Source of the DNA: a virus
Reading direction: 5' to 3' (one strand)
Length of the DNA: 51,902 bases
IMG/VR virus record: IMGVR_UViG_3300003886_000264
Location: 1 to 51,902 of that record
Within the stretch, counting starts at the first letter, position 1; every line of letters begins with the position of its first letter. Shown here in pieces: positions 1 to 51,902 of the stretch. The notes beneath the pieces are model-generated. The model saw only the letters and a list, made by a program, of their open reading frames with translations, was not told the DNA's origin and ran no database searches. Made by a program: the position numbers and the translations under genes.

Positions 1-91
1 CTTTCGGATGCCAGAGGACTTCTCCAGACTCCAAAAGATTACCAGGTCTATATGGTCTGCTCGGTTCTTCTGGAGCAACTTTCCCCATTTT
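1..91. repeat. 91-bp terminal direct repeat (contig overlap), left copy
   Basis: The first 91 bases are identical to the last 91 (51812-51902). The reading frame of the giant minus-strand gene passes through the repeat without a break when the two ends are joined. This fits a circular assembly graph closed with a k-mer-length overlap better than real phage termini, since it lies inside one gene. The unique genome length is then 51811 bp. The physical packaging ends cannot be read from this. Confidence 0.95.
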
Positions 92-3703: not shown

Positions 3704-5129
3704 CAGTACCTCCTCCAACATTACCTAAGTTACCCAAACGACCTGAGAAAACACTATTATCTCTCCCACTAAGTCTATCTTCTTCAGCTTGTTTCTTTAA
3801 AAATAGGTCTCTGGCTTCTGCCACACGACTTTCATAATCTACATAAGTTTCAGGGTCGCCAGGGTCATAGTATCCTCCACCACCATTAGGGAAGAGAGAA
3901 GCATCTACTGGAACAATAATCTTAGTTGGGTCTAAGAAAGAACCATCTATAAGAGGATAAGAACGAGGATTATCAAGTGTTCCTTTCCTAAAGAATGGAC
4001 TTACTGGAGTGTATTCTCCATATTGTGAAGTAAGCAAATTACCTAAATCTTTATAGTTCTTATTATAGTATTGGTCTGAAGTCTTATCATACATAACATC
4101 ATAAACTTCCTTCGCTAAATCTTCACCTGTCTCCATTGCCTTAATTACTTGAAGACTTGAACCAAATTCATTTATTTCTTTTTGACGCTTCTTTACATCA
4201 TTAGCGAATAAAGCAAGAGCAGTTCTTTTATATTCATCTCTTACCCATTGAAAATCTTCAGTTTCATTTGGAAATCGTAATAAATCCATCCTTTTAGTTG
4301 CCTCAACAAGTTCATTATATTTCCTTTTAGTAAAAGTAATATTCTCCATAAGGGTTGTGCCCATATTACCAGTTTTACTAAACTGACTTCTCCAATTTAA
4401 TGTATTCTTTCTTATAAGTGCATCTACACCTGCCCACGCTTTAGCAAACTCAGGGTCACTTCCATATTGCAAGAACATATTATTTCTAAAGTTCTCTAAA
4501 TTAAATCCTTTTTTACCACTTGCTTGATTAAAGATAAGATTTAGTTTAGAGAATTCATCACCACTGATTATCTTAGCCATAAGTGAAGTAACTTTTCTAT
4601 CCTCTTTAAGGTCATCAAGCTTTATGTTATCTAACAGTAAATCTGTTTTTATAGACTCTACTTGAAACATAGATTGCTTAAATGCTTGTGTCTCAAAAGG
4701 TAACTTACGTTGTCTCTCTAAGTTTGAAATTTTTTGCTTCTGTTGACCAGAGAGTACATCTACTAATCTACCTGCATCTTCTCCTCCGACCATACCAAGA
4801 TTCTGTATCGTACCACCATAAAGTTTATTTAATTCTTCTTGTCTCCGCAAGACGTTAACACTAAAAGATGCAAAAGTACTTAACTGTTTTTCAAGGTCAA
4901 CTTGATTTTCCTTAACAGTAGGGTCTTCATTTATTGCACTTAATTGTTCTTCAGTTGATAATGGTTCCTGCTCAAGTTCTTGCAGTCTTGCATTAAAGTC
5001 AGTTATGACATTACGAGTACCCTTCGTTTGAGCTTCTAATAACTTTGCTTGTCCCTTAATAACTTCACCACTCATTAAGTTAGAAGTCTGTAACTTTGCT
5101 AAAGCTGTTGTAAAATCTATTTTAGCCAT
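3693..5129 (-). CDS. Internal virion protein (gp15-position), 478 aa
   Basis: A largely helical, charged protein lacking signal peptide or membrane segments. The start at 5129 (MAKIDFTTAL) is chosen because GGAGGAGGG ends 4 nt upstream; the frame is open for 14 more codons upstream. The stop at 3693 overlaps the giant gene start. The C-terminus is Gly-rich (GRLGNLGNVGGGTGGR). It sits between the 241-aa hydrophobic protein and the 2214-aa protein, the order gp14-gp15-gp16 in T7-type internal core and ejectosome genes. A role as a virion internal or ejected protein is an inference from order, size and composition. I recognise no family by motif. Confidence 0.6.
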   Translation of the reverse strand: MAKIDFTTALAKLQTSNLMSGEVIKGQAKLLEAQTKGTRNVITDFNARLQELEQEPLSTEEQLSAINEDPTVKENQVDLEKQLSTFASFSVNVLRRQEELNKLYGGTIQNLGMVGGEDAGRLVDVLSGQQKQKISNLERQRKLPFETQAFKQSMFQVESIKTDLLLDNIKLDDLKEDRKVTSLMAKIISGDEFSKLNLIFNQASGKKGFNLENFRNNMFLQYGSDPEFAKAWAGVDALIRKNTLNWRSQFSKTGNMGTTLMENITFTKRKYNELVEATKRMDLLRFPNETEDFQWVRDEYKRTALALFANDVKKRQKEINEFGSSLQVIKAMETGEDLAKEVYDVMYDKTSDQYYNKNYKDLGNLLTSQYGEYTPVSPFFRKGTLDNPRSYPLIDGSFLDPTKIIVPVDASLFPNGGGGYYDPGDPETYVDYESRVAEARDLFLKKQAEEDRLSGRDNSVFSGRLGNLGNVGGGTGGR

Positions 5130-22919: not shown

Positions 22920-23100
22920 TATTTTTCTTCTCCTTTATATATTAAGTGATGGTTTATTAAACTTGGCATATTCGTTTATTCGTAGCTACTGAGGAGTCGA
23001 GCCACTGCAGTTAGCTGTTTCTCCCTTCGCCCAAAATCTACGTGCTTGAAGGACACTCGAGTCTCTCCGACAAGACAGGCAGATTTCCTTGCAAATATAT
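22920..23100 (-). other. GC-richer foldable intergenic island (structured RNA or packaging site candidate)
   Basis: About 120 bases (22981-23075) are clearly GC-richer than the surroundings and hold nested inverted repeats on the minus strand. GTCTTG pairs with CAAG(C)AC around a GGA/TCC helix. CGTAG pairs with CTACG, enclosing GGGAG/CTCCT and AGC/GCT. The region also contains the palindromes ACTCGAGT and ACTGCAGT. No open reading frame of credible size exists here and it does not fit a tRNA cloverleaf. It lies between the 94-aa gene and the small-terminase candidate. It could be an mRNA structure, a small RNA or a pac/cos-type site. Confidence 0.4.
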
Positions 23101-23385
23101 TCAAGATAACTCACCATCACTATCTTTAGTATTATTTATTGCTCTTTTTAAAGCATCATCTATTAGTGCTCTATTTATTCGCTGTATAGAGGCACTCAAT
23201 TCATTCATAAGCAATATCTCTACATTAGGAGAAAGATTAAAGATTTCTACACTAAAGCCAATTTCTAATCTTTCTGTAAACTTAGGTTTTTCTGTCATAA
23301 CCACAGTCTCTTCTCCTTTTTCAGTAGGTTCTCCTACTTCATCTATGATTTCTCCAACACTTACATCTATCCATACTGCGTGCAT
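23101..23385 (-). CDS. Unknown small protein, 94 aa
   Basis: ATG at 23385 has a strong GGAGGT site 5 nt upstream that lies inside the preceding small gene; the two overlap by 19 nt. The N-terminal half is acidic (GEIIDEVGEPTEKGEETVVM). The C-terminal half contains a helix ending in RALIDDALKRAINN. No membrane segment or metal motif. It belongs to the RyR-headed group at the start of the minus unit. Function unknown. Confidence 0.55.
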   Translation of the reverse strand: MHAVWIDVSVGEIIDEVGEPTEKGEETVVMTEKPKFTERLEIGFSVEIFNLSPNVEILLMNELSASIQRINRALIDDALKRAINNTKDSDGELS

Positions 23386-23621
23386 TTAACCTCCTGAAAT
23401 TCAGGGTATCTAAATTTCCAATCTTCAACTATCCCCTTATTCCCTTTTGATAACATTTCTAAAAGAGGCATTTTTGCATACTCCCTAAGTCTATCTTGAA
23501 TAAGTACAGAGTCATATAAACCAGTCGGCTCAGACAAAGGTGTTCTGAACCAACTGACTGGTTTAACGGACAAGGCAGCGATAGCGAGTCCCAAACTCCT
23601 TAAAAACGTTCTTCTATGCAA
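23367..23621 (-). CDS. Tat-signal-like protein with major-capsid N-arm motifs, 84 aa
   Basis: I start it at TTG 23621, 6 nt after GAGG and overlapping the RyR stop. A GTG at 23624 is the alternative; the frame is open further up inside the RyR gene. The N-terminus reads HRRTFLRSLGLAIAALSV, close to the twin-arginine consensus (S/T)RRxFLK plus a hydrophobic core. After a short linker come GLYDSVLIQDRLREYA (residues ~34-49) and EDWKFRYPEF, matching the capsid protein motifs GLYDLSNVQDRLRIYA and TDWEFRYPEF. Between the motifs the sequence differs and is shorter. It looks like an exported or membrane-targeted fragment of a capsid arm, or a remnant of a capsid gene duplication. Function unknown. 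Confidence 0.6.
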   Translation of the reverse strand: MHRRTFLRSLGLAIAALSVKPVSWFRTPLSEPTGLYDSVLIQDRLREYAKMPLLEMLSKGNKGIVEDWKFRYPEFQEVKCTQYG

Positions 23622-24036
23622 CACTTCCCTCAATCCTACCTGTAAAAGCTCCTTCTTCTTCAACAGGGACAACTATAAATGGTCTTAAAGAACCAATTAT
23701 CCCTTTAAAAAGATGGTCTTTAGCTTGCTGCTGAGAAGATAATTCATTAAAAGGAAGCAAACAAGGATGAGTTTTCAATTCTGCATCTTTCGTATGTCCC
23801 CAGACCCATCCAGTTCTGATTTTATCTCTCGTCCAGTTATCATGAGCAGCAGACTCACTCGCATCAGGATTACTCAGATGAAATTTAACTCCATCAACAG
23901 CACTAACTTTCTGCCATACTGGAGCATTTTCCCAACTATCCTGTGAATGGTCTTTATCCAGCGCACAGAAAACCTTATTCGCTTCGTGACATATTTGTGC
24001 CACATCTACTACTGATAAAAAAGTCCCTTCTTTCAT
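23614..24036 (-). CDS. RyR-domain protein, 140 aa
   Basis: ATG at 24036 with AAGGAGA 5 nt upstream. The sequence matches the prokaryotic/phage RyR (ryanodine-receptor repeat) domain: CHEANKVFCALDKDHSQDSW, then W..VSAVDGVKFHL, then HDNWTRDKIRTGWVWG, K..HPCLLPFNEL and the ending AKDHLFKGIIGSL. Conserved features are the paired Trp residues, the Lys-Thr-His-Pro-Cys stretch and the KDHLF helix. RyR domains are ~90 aa and occur alone in many phages; a ligand-sensing role (nucleotide-type small molecules) has been proposed but is not settled. It is the first gene after the 24.1-kb minus promoter. Confidence 0.82.
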   Translation of the reverse strand: MKEGTFLSVVDVAQICHEANKVFCALDKDHSQDSWENAPVWQKVSAVDGVKFHLSNPDASESAAHDNWTRDKIRTGWVWGHTKDAELKTHPCLLPFNELSSQQQAKDHLFKGIIGSLRPFIVVPVEEEGAFTGRIEGSVA

Positions 24037-24073: not shown

Positions 24074-24102
24074 AATATAAAGAATTATAAACATTTTGTC
24101 AA
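24074..24102 (-). promoter_or_regulatory. Promoter of the minus-strand unit
   Basis: On the minus strand TTGACA (24102-24097) is followed by 17 nt and TATATT (24079-24074), ending 37 nt before the RyR start codon. This is a near-perfect primary-sigma promoter and the same pattern as at 19369-19397 and 29983-30011. It should drive the RyR-to-terminase group and possibly everything downstream on this strand. Confidence 0.8.
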
Positions 24103-45348: not shown

Positions 45349-46002
45349 TTAAAAAGCTCTTGTTTTCACGTAAGCCCATTTAACCTTTCCATTGACCTTG
45401 CTCTCATTATAGACCTTACGCAATCTATAAAACCATCCTTTACCAAACTTCCAAAAAGTTCTACGAGTCTCATAAAATTCTTTAAGTTCAAATATATAAA
45501 GTTCATATAAATAACTTTCATTTAGTATCCTTTTTGAACGTTGTCCTTGTAATCCTACCCTGTAAGCTGCGCTTATTGTTCTATGCCCTAAGATTCCATC
45601 AACTTTAAGAAAAAATCCAAAGCTTATATTTATAACAACTTGCAATGCTTTAACTGCTCGTTTAGGGTCTGCGTTAATACCAAAGTCAAATACTTTAAAA
45701 GCTAAACTCTCATCAGTAAATTGGTCGTAATAAAGACTATAAAAGTTCTTGTGATAAAACTGAATCGTGTATTCAATAGCTTCTAAATATTTACCAGCTT
45801 TCCAATAACTCATAACAACTTCAAAGTCTTCTTCCCAATACTTGGAAGCTATCCCGAATATTGTCTTACCACCTATATCATCAGGGTCATTTGCTAAGAC
45901 ACCTTCATTTATAAGAGATGCTTGAATAAATCTTATAAATCGAGCAGAGTAATAAGAAGGGAAGCGATATGCTCCCTCCTTAAATAATTGTGCGACTATC
46001 AA
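45349..46002 (-). CDS. GH108-type endolysin (muramidase), 217 aa
   Basis: Starts at TTG 46002, overlapping the upstream stop (TTGA), with GAGGA 9 nt upstream. The N-terminal motif NEGVLANDPDDIGGKTIFGI (~32-51) is the GH108 N-acetylmuramidase signature EGG..DP.D.GG.T.(Y/F)GI, with Glu ~33 catalytic. The C-terminal half has the peptidoglycan-binding-3 pattern: ALQVVINISFGFFLKVDGIL then GHRTISAA. It degrades the cell wall for lysis. No signal peptide, so it needs a holin. The tail is basic. Confidence 0.88.
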   Translation of the reverse strand: MIVAQLFKEGAYRFPSYYSARFIRFIQASLINEGVLANDPDDIGGKTIFGIASKYWEEDFEVVMSYWKAGKYLEAIEYTIQFYHKNFYSLYYDQFTDESLAFKVFDFGINADPKRAVKALQVVINISFGFFLKVDGILGHRTISAAYRVGLQGQRSKRILNESYLYELYIFELKEFYETRRTFWKFGKGWFYRLRKVYNESKVNGKVKWAYVKTRAF

Positions 46003-51800: not shown

Positions 51801-51902
51801 GTGGGTTACAGCTTTCGGATGCCAGAGGACTTCTCCAGACTCCAAAAGATTACCAGGTCTATATGGTCTGCTCGGTTCTTCTGGAGCAACTTTCCCCATT
51901 TT
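48870..51902 (-). CDS. Giant internal virion / DNA-ejection protein, 3' part
   Basis: C-terminal part of the 2214-aa protein that starts at 3703; bases 51812-51902 repeat bases 1-91. The frame continues cleanly through the joint (SKYYDPKTEVKMGKVAPEEP). Segments: a linker rich in Lys/Pro/Asn/Thr just inside (KTEPNNPEKITPNNQKRTTT); long charged helices; then a more hydrophobic, Gly/Ala-rich part near residues ~1800-2100. That part contains IGKLFTMFQSAPNAYYRL and FVLPMLFQFVADGFNFNDKR, a pattern I associate with giant phage polyvalent proteins and gp16-type ejected proteins. The end is very basic (YRRDYRRLLNQLKKEERNK). Role inferred: forms part of the DNA ejection conduit. Confidence 0.8.
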   Translation of the reverse strand, partial: KMGKVAPEEPSRPYRPGNLLESGEVLWHPKAVTHADVIIRLQDEGKLPKNFNFDLIESSGSIAPSGVYYDQRFIGDVSKEIVSNVRKRESGKTEPNNPEKITPNNQKRTTTKPDNVEGVDVVGKIEPSLKTISDEIFAPKNKMSAGERKTFKSIVSKLQRYKPKKIKGRLTGTTLTADEHTKLYNIRKVVGVDAKEKEALMKKVVENLGEMELKPEKTATDRQYELEMQSLFENLGRFGAIKDMRGEQLKFANEGLKEIIETGRTKRKAKEEARLKRRNAILEKAIKEIGAPVSTAKARELGYDVEKSGFLRRLSEFDNNMLGFEHLLNKVSGKSSFLSEYFYKKQIKTANQSQDRGIRVTQEAIENKLSEIYGKDKRPLAKELEENRKRQDKTGVFVKETTGEKGKEVTELVELRISQNEGYKKWLELKDPTLDPTFKEMGYNPETIKQLETFLKPKVLEWAKWQIEEFYPTYYKGVNEAFRERFGVDLPFNKFYSPIERSATKEVIDNPLLQRGSQYATVVNKHLSMRVNSKAELKYLDGDKTLIKHIGEMEHFKAWVEPIREMRSVFGDKTFRMTIEQQYGKKMLDLIDFYVDNLARGGSEKSKSYELLDKLRRNFTRAVIGGNPIITVKQLTSIPAMGVNIPTSQFLAGIGDFAANPRKAIKILMDSEMMRTRYSAGAMDRDVQDALSKKVSTQLAGARSISDFLMLSTKLGDKAAILVGGWSVYKYNKAKFLKQGLPEEQAHKRALREFEVVVERTQQSARVEDLSYIQQSGSIGKLFTMFQSAPNAYYRLTSEAVRDLASGKGIKSENIRKLAIAHFVLPMLFQFVADGFNFNDKRQLRAAVLGSLNGLLVIGDLLQTGFAAAQKDFHFGVQGTPVLQTAEDLVQALEKAGKMIEEDDFAIDNVLSFADKIASGTSKLVGIPYGTGKRITKGVIEGEDVRRYIGYSEAVLKQTQSDMKRYKRLADSWRRRYKKDPTPENYASYLEYRRDYRRLLNQLKKEERNK
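51812..51902. repeat. 91-bp terminal direct repeat (contig overlap), right copy
   Basis: Exact copy of bases 1-91, so one copy is redundant. It lies inside the giant internal-virion gene, in the stretch encoding the residues around GEVLWHPKAV. Confidence 0.95.

Follow-up and report, generated by a model that had tools for sequence, protein, structure and literature searches.

A small protein repeats the N-terminal capsid segment of its phage after a Tat-like N-terminus: a possible decoy beside a RyDEP-type gene

Why would a phage carry, as a separate gene, a second and diverged copy of a short piece of its own capsid protein? The question is raised by an 84-residue open reading frame (ORF) on the minus strand of IMG/VR virus record IMGVR_UViG_3300003886_000264, all 51,902 nucleotides of which form the window analysed here. 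The phage is one of a poorly known group. An initial annotation described the product as a twin-arginine-type signal joined to two motifs of the N-arm of the phage's capsid protein, and its coordinates and sequence for the ORF are correct (Table 1; translation LHRRTFLRSLGLAIAALSVKPVSWFRTPLSEPTGLYDSVLIQDRLREYAKMPLLEMLSKGNKGIVEDWKFRYPEFQEVKCTQYG, followed by the stop codon). We find that the homology to the N-terminal segment of the major capsid protein (MCP) is real, and that the ORF adjoins a gene resembling RyDEP, a phage family directed against the Thoeris defence. Tentatively, and at less than even odds, we prefer to read the protein as a capsid-arm decoy that acts against host defence, narrowly ahead of a captured gene fragment and then of a modulator of head assembly and a true Tat-exported protein, in that order. 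Beyond the homology, the gene arrangement and the conservation of residues, we infer the mechanism throughout.

BLASTP aligns residues 34–78 of the small protein with residues 10–73 of the MCP (E = 7e-10, 36% identity over 64 columns, 19 gap positions). In a six-frame search of the genome's ORFs the MCP is the only significant match (E = 1e-7; the next is at 0.32). The Smith–Waterman score of the pair is 89, compared with a maximum of 54 in 20,000 shuffles, and the resemblance extends to the MCPs of four related records, matched at E of about 1e-6 to 1e-5. The repetition of capsid motifs described in the initial annotation, and with it the homology to the N-terminal segment of the MCP, is confirmed at the level of protein sequence. 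The alignment implies two in-frame deletions, of MCP residues 27–41 and 56–59. The small protein shows no match beyond MCP residue 73 and, with 84 residues, does not hold a full-length HK97-fold capsid domain; no capsid-like remnant was found in the other frames or the flanks of its gene. Because the local alignment of the two genes at the DNA level does not score above shuffles, the case rests on protein similarity.

The window MCP itself has no family match above cut-off. Its homologues L003 (44% identical) and L004 (43%) match SU10_MCP (PF17236) at 5e-8 and 3e-11, above the curated cut-off, and these matches, together with the portal–scaffold–MCP gene order, support its assignment as an SU10-type MCP. 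The SU10 MCP has an HK97 fold with an N-terminal arm (PMC9509320). The position of residues 10–73, before the Pfam-matching region, suggests that they form the corresponding N-arm of the window protein; an AlphaFold model of the MCP is too poor to show an arm (predicted local distance difference test, pLDDT, 30), and no relatives were found in the PDB.

Relatives of the MCP were first found by a DNA pattern for GLYD....QDRLR, and pattern and profile scans together yielded homologues in four viral contigs. The homologues found are 43–57.5% identical to the window MCP. The closest (57.5%) lies on a 36-kb phage contig (L024) in a Bacteroidota-phylum genome, G036; the host family suggested by that genome carries TatC in 68 of 75 genomes and ThsB-family TIR proteins in 19 of 75, so that hosts of this group may have Tat export as well as TIR immunity. 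A distant capsid homologue (L023, G336:C22:13438-14631; 5.7e-17) occurs in another genome of the same class. No relatives emerged when viral contigs were scanned with one protein at a time (the small protein, MCP, TerL or portal); tblastn of phage records with the small protein, MCP and portal gave no match, and neither did a DNA pattern for DW[E/K]FRYPE. Two candidates were discarded: L005, obtained with the GLYD....QDRLR pattern, is not a capsid homologue, and L012, from a Bacteroidales genome, is an unrelated protein that shares YPEFDELD.

Four related records, L024 (from G036), L009, L004/L011 and L010, were compared with the window by local tblastn. TerL and the MCP are present in all four, and the 400-aa protein encoded near TerL in all but L010. 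Homologues of the RyR-domain protein and of the 94-aa and 175-aa proteins encoded around the small gene were found in none of the four, in agreement with whole-record searches, and the small protein matches only their MCPs; since these records may be fragments, such absences carry weight only as a pattern. The genes for the RyR, small and 94-aa proteins form an accessory cassette, because no homologue of any of them was found in relatives that keep TerL and the MCP. L004 has, upstream of its head genes, a gene for a GroES-like co-chaperonin (PF00166, 9e-6, above cut-off; 3781-4137, plus strand), which precedes by a few genes its counterpart of the 400-aa gene.

How old is the copy, and has it been kept for a function? 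The DNA words GGTTTATATGAC and CAAGATAGACT, to which the initial annotation drew attention, are indeed common to the small gene and the MCP gene, but they add little to the protein match: codons are identical at 15 of the 23 identical residues, compared with 11.4 +/- 2.2 expected from codon usage alone. Because the synonymous match is so near this expectation, the shared words do not imply a recent copy. Over 45 codons, NG86 gives a synonymous divergence (dS) of about 1.36 and a nonsynonymous divergence (dN) of 0.48. The proposal of a duplication remnant survives as one reading of the fragment, but recent duplication of the phage's own gene, as the shared words had suggested, is weakened by the near-saturated synonymous sites. 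Residues that are invariant among the MCPs are retained at 17 of 25 aligned positions, as against 6 of the 20 other aligned residues. In a simulation of neutral drift, the probability of retaining at least 17 invariants was 0.45 at 0.2 substitutions/site, 0.034 at 0.35 and 0.001 at 0.5; at 0.2 substitutions/site the 45 codons remained stop-free in 33% of runs. If the copy derives from the MCP of this lineage at the depth suggested by dS, selection would have acted on it at the protein level. With a recent capture from a related phage, its conserved residues could have been inherited from that capsid, and neutral decay would be possible.

These results bear directly on the idea that part of a capsid gene, from this phage's lineage or from a related phage, was captured or duplicated, fell in frame behind a hydrophobic stretch by chance and has no selected function. 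We consider this somewhat unlikely, though almost as likely as the decoy. It would account for the occurrence of the gene in a single genome, for the change of 8 of the 25 invariant residues and the deletion of 19 residues, and for a codon adaptation slightly below that of the neighbours (0.65 vs 0.70–0.79); a recent capture, at 0.2 substitutions/site, fits both the neutral retention and the stop-free frame. Yet if the age of the copy matches dS of about 1.4, neutral retention of 17 of the 25 would be very unlikely, and the gene itself has a sound appearance, with 84 stop-free codons, both gaps in frame, tight overlaps with the starts or ends of both neighbours and no capsid-like remnant elsewhere. 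Absence from all relatives combined with decay was, for the initial annotation, the pattern that would count against its proposal; the gene was found in none of the related records, but signs of decay are not seen. It is probably an expressed accessory gene of the phage.

The N-terminus of the small protein consists of an RR motif, RRTFLRS, and a hydrophobic stretch, LGLAIAALSV. Among the gene starts of the window this one is alone in pairing RR-x-phi-phi with a strongly hydrophobic stretch, apart from one weak match inside another gene; in shuffled DNA, 0.12% of ORF starts do so. The initial annotation saw here a near-consensus Tat signal. That description holds for the motif, which is kept from three nearby starts, but not for the signal as a whole: PF10518 (TAT_signal) scores 14.5 bits (E = 0.036), below its curated cut-off of 22.7, and no A-x-A cleavage site is seen by eye. 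Since, in addition, the hydrophobic stretch is short, export by a Tat-like signal is only plausible, and the segment may be described as Tat-like or membrane-seeking. The RR pair is retained from starts at 23633, 23624 and 23621. Of these, the GTG at 23624 is a possible alternative to the TTG at 23621; both lie within GTGTTGCATAG, which spans the stop of the RyR gene, and the open frame reaches still further upstream, to a TTG at 23672. A start that would drop the RR pair, a possibility the initial annotation had taken as damaging, does exist at the in-frame TTG 23594, but its AAGGAG lies only 1 nt upstream, a poor spacing. An ATG at 23471 has GGAG at 9 nt.

That the protein is a true Tat substrate, at work on the membrane or beyond the cytoplasm (in superinfection exclusion, for instance, or at the envelope) with the arm reused for an unrelated purpose, seems to us improbable. 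The closeness of the motif match at the extreme N-terminus, the hydrophobic stretch behind it and the prevalence of TatC in the putative host family of the closest relative are all in its favour. The shortcomings of the signal are not, nor is the AlphaFold model of the small protein, which has a mean pLDDT of 54 and no confident fold; moreover, a capsid arm of 50 residues would be an odd Tat cargo.

A different role is suggested by the gene immediately upstream. The initial annotation named it as an RyR gene, and the family match bears this out (Table 1); the connection with RyDEP is added here. RyDEP is a phage RyR-domain anti-Thoeris family that cleaves or sequesters Thoeris signals (PMC13232231), and the pattern H..W(21)H(16)D of the neighbour reproduces, at exact spacing, all four of its ligand or catalytic residues, H75, W78, H100 and D117. 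The neighbour, whose phage has no close relatives in the databases, is therefore likely to act on Thoeris signals as a sponge or as a glycosidase. Thoeris ThsB proteins, for their part, are activated by capsid protein, and the staphylococcal trigger acts through its E-loop and P-loop (PMC12578639). Given a RyDEP-type neighbour and a capsid-triggered Thoeris, an anti-defence reading of the cassette is reasonable, and the published anti-Thoeris role of RyDEP is the strongest support for the decoy. The small protein would display the conserved surface of the arm apart from the remainder of the capsid protein, and could compete for something that binds that surface. The likeliest partner would be a host capsid sensor, because the neighbour is of a type that removes Thoeris signals and because capsid activates Thoeris. 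The two genes might then serve two steps of one pathway, one blunting the trigger and the other mopping up or destroying the signal, with the N-terminal segment perhaps keeping the decoy on the membrane. The complete scheme, in which a possibly membrane-targeted decoy of the phage's own capsid arm and a RyDEP-type protein together silence capsid-triggered TIR immunity at two steps, is distinctly doubtful.

Several observations weigh against the decoy. The capsid determinants mapped so far, in one system, are W84 of the E-loop and V273 of the P-loop, and not the N-arm (PMC12578639). The activity of the RyR neighbour is predicted from its residues, and most of the RyDEP homologues tested bound the signals rather than cleaving them (PMC13232231); binding by the decoy and its effect on defence are likewise putative. 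If the small protein were exported, it could not meet a cytosolic sensor. In three other RyR phages examined, no capsid fragment was found near the RyR gene; in Vibrio phage 1.151.O two weak matches near that gene are not in the capsid frame. The small gene is known from one genome only, its conserved residues could reflect recent capture from the capsid gene of a related phage, and the host is assigned from a single contig that was binned with a genome assembly.

It is also possible, if unlikely, that the arm copy acts on the phage's own head, binding the scaffold or adjacent capsid subunits, or tethering them to the membrane, and so timing or limiting procapsid assembly. The retained residues are those that are invariant across the capsid family, the gene shares a strand with the head genes and stands upstream of them, and p22 of the yeast element Ty1, a self-encoded truncated shell protein that inhibits assembly (PMC4599808), provides a precedent. 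Relatives with the same portal–scaffold–MCP order show no such gene, however, so that it is no core assembly factor, and the adjoining gene is of an immune-evasion type and not a head gene.

Table 1. Positions in the window of the small gene, its segments and the features discussed with it
Feature	Position	Strand	Remarks
Small capsid-arm ORF, 84 aa	23367..23621	-	TTG start; stop TAG 23369-23367
Tat-like N-terminus LHRRTFLRSLGLAIAALS, residues 1-18	23568..23621	-	PF10518, below curated cut-off
Capsid-arm motif 1, GLYDSVLIQDRLREYAK, residues 34-50	23472..23522	-	Corresponds to MCP 10-26
Middle block MPLLEMLSKGNKGI	23430..23471	-	Corresponds to MCP 42-55, weak similarity; 15 MCP residues (27-41) missing before it
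Capsid-arm motif 2, VEDWKFRYPEFQEV	23388..23429	-	Corresponds to MCP 60-73; MCP 56-59 missing before it
MCP, 463 aa	14429..15820	-	Parent, or else a close relative, of the copied arm
RyR-domain gene, 140 aa, upstream of small gene	23614..24036	-	PF02026 5e-11; stop overlaps start of small gene
Downstream 94-aa gene, function unassigned	23101..23385	-	Start overlaps small gene by 19 nt
AGGAGG Shine-Dalgarno of 94-aa gene	23390..23395	-	Within the 3' end (last codons) of the small ORF
Promoter-like TTGACA-17-TATATT (11/12), upstream of RyR gene	24074..24102	-	

The record carries an exact direct terminal repeat of 91 bp (window 1-91 = 51812-51902) and is probably a complete genome. On the minus strand, a 1.1-kb intergenic region is followed by the RyR gene, the small ORF and the 94-aa, 175-aa and 400-aa ORFs, and then by TerL (assigned by a PHROG terminase match), a P22-like portal (PF16510, 6e-24), a scaffold-like acidic protein and the MCP. 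Promoter-like sites of the kind found upstream of the RyR gene are no commoner in the window than in shuffled sequence. Between the 94-aa and 175-aa genes lies a GC-richer non-coding gap, at 22920-23100; folding of 22930-23110 shows RNA structure that is not in excess (z -0.11), and an Rfam scan of the window gave no match. Elsewhere, at 45349-46002 on the minus strand, the window encodes an endolysin-like Glycosyl hydrolase 108 protein (PF05838, 1e-8).

If the decoy reading is true, phages may counter capsid-sensing immunity by means of a spare piece of capsid, and not only by mutation of the capsid itself, and in this phage the spare piece would adjoin a gene for removing the alarm signal. 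Were the small gene only a captured fragment, it would still illustrate how structural genes give rise to accessory ones.

Four known systems offer points of comparison. With RyDEP (PMC13232231), the likeness in domain and in the four residues belongs to the neighbouring RyR protein and not to the small protein, and no capsid-arm gene adjoins the RyR gene in any of the three further RyR phages that were checked. Thoeris (PMC12578639) and CapRel (PMC9712102) exemplify the capsid protein as a trigger that a phage would need to hide; both are host sensors, unlike the phage-encoded small protein, and a literature search for capsid decoys together with CapRel found no paper. SU10-type MCPs (PF17236) are the source family of residues 34–78, but the small protein is without more than 80% of the capsid protein and cannot form a capsid subunit. 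Ty1 p22 is a shortened Gag by which the element is restricted from within (PMC4599808): like it, the small protein is a self-encoded fragment of a shell protein, but one that is encoded by a separate and diverged gene, comes from the N-terminal segment and has acquired a new N-terminus.
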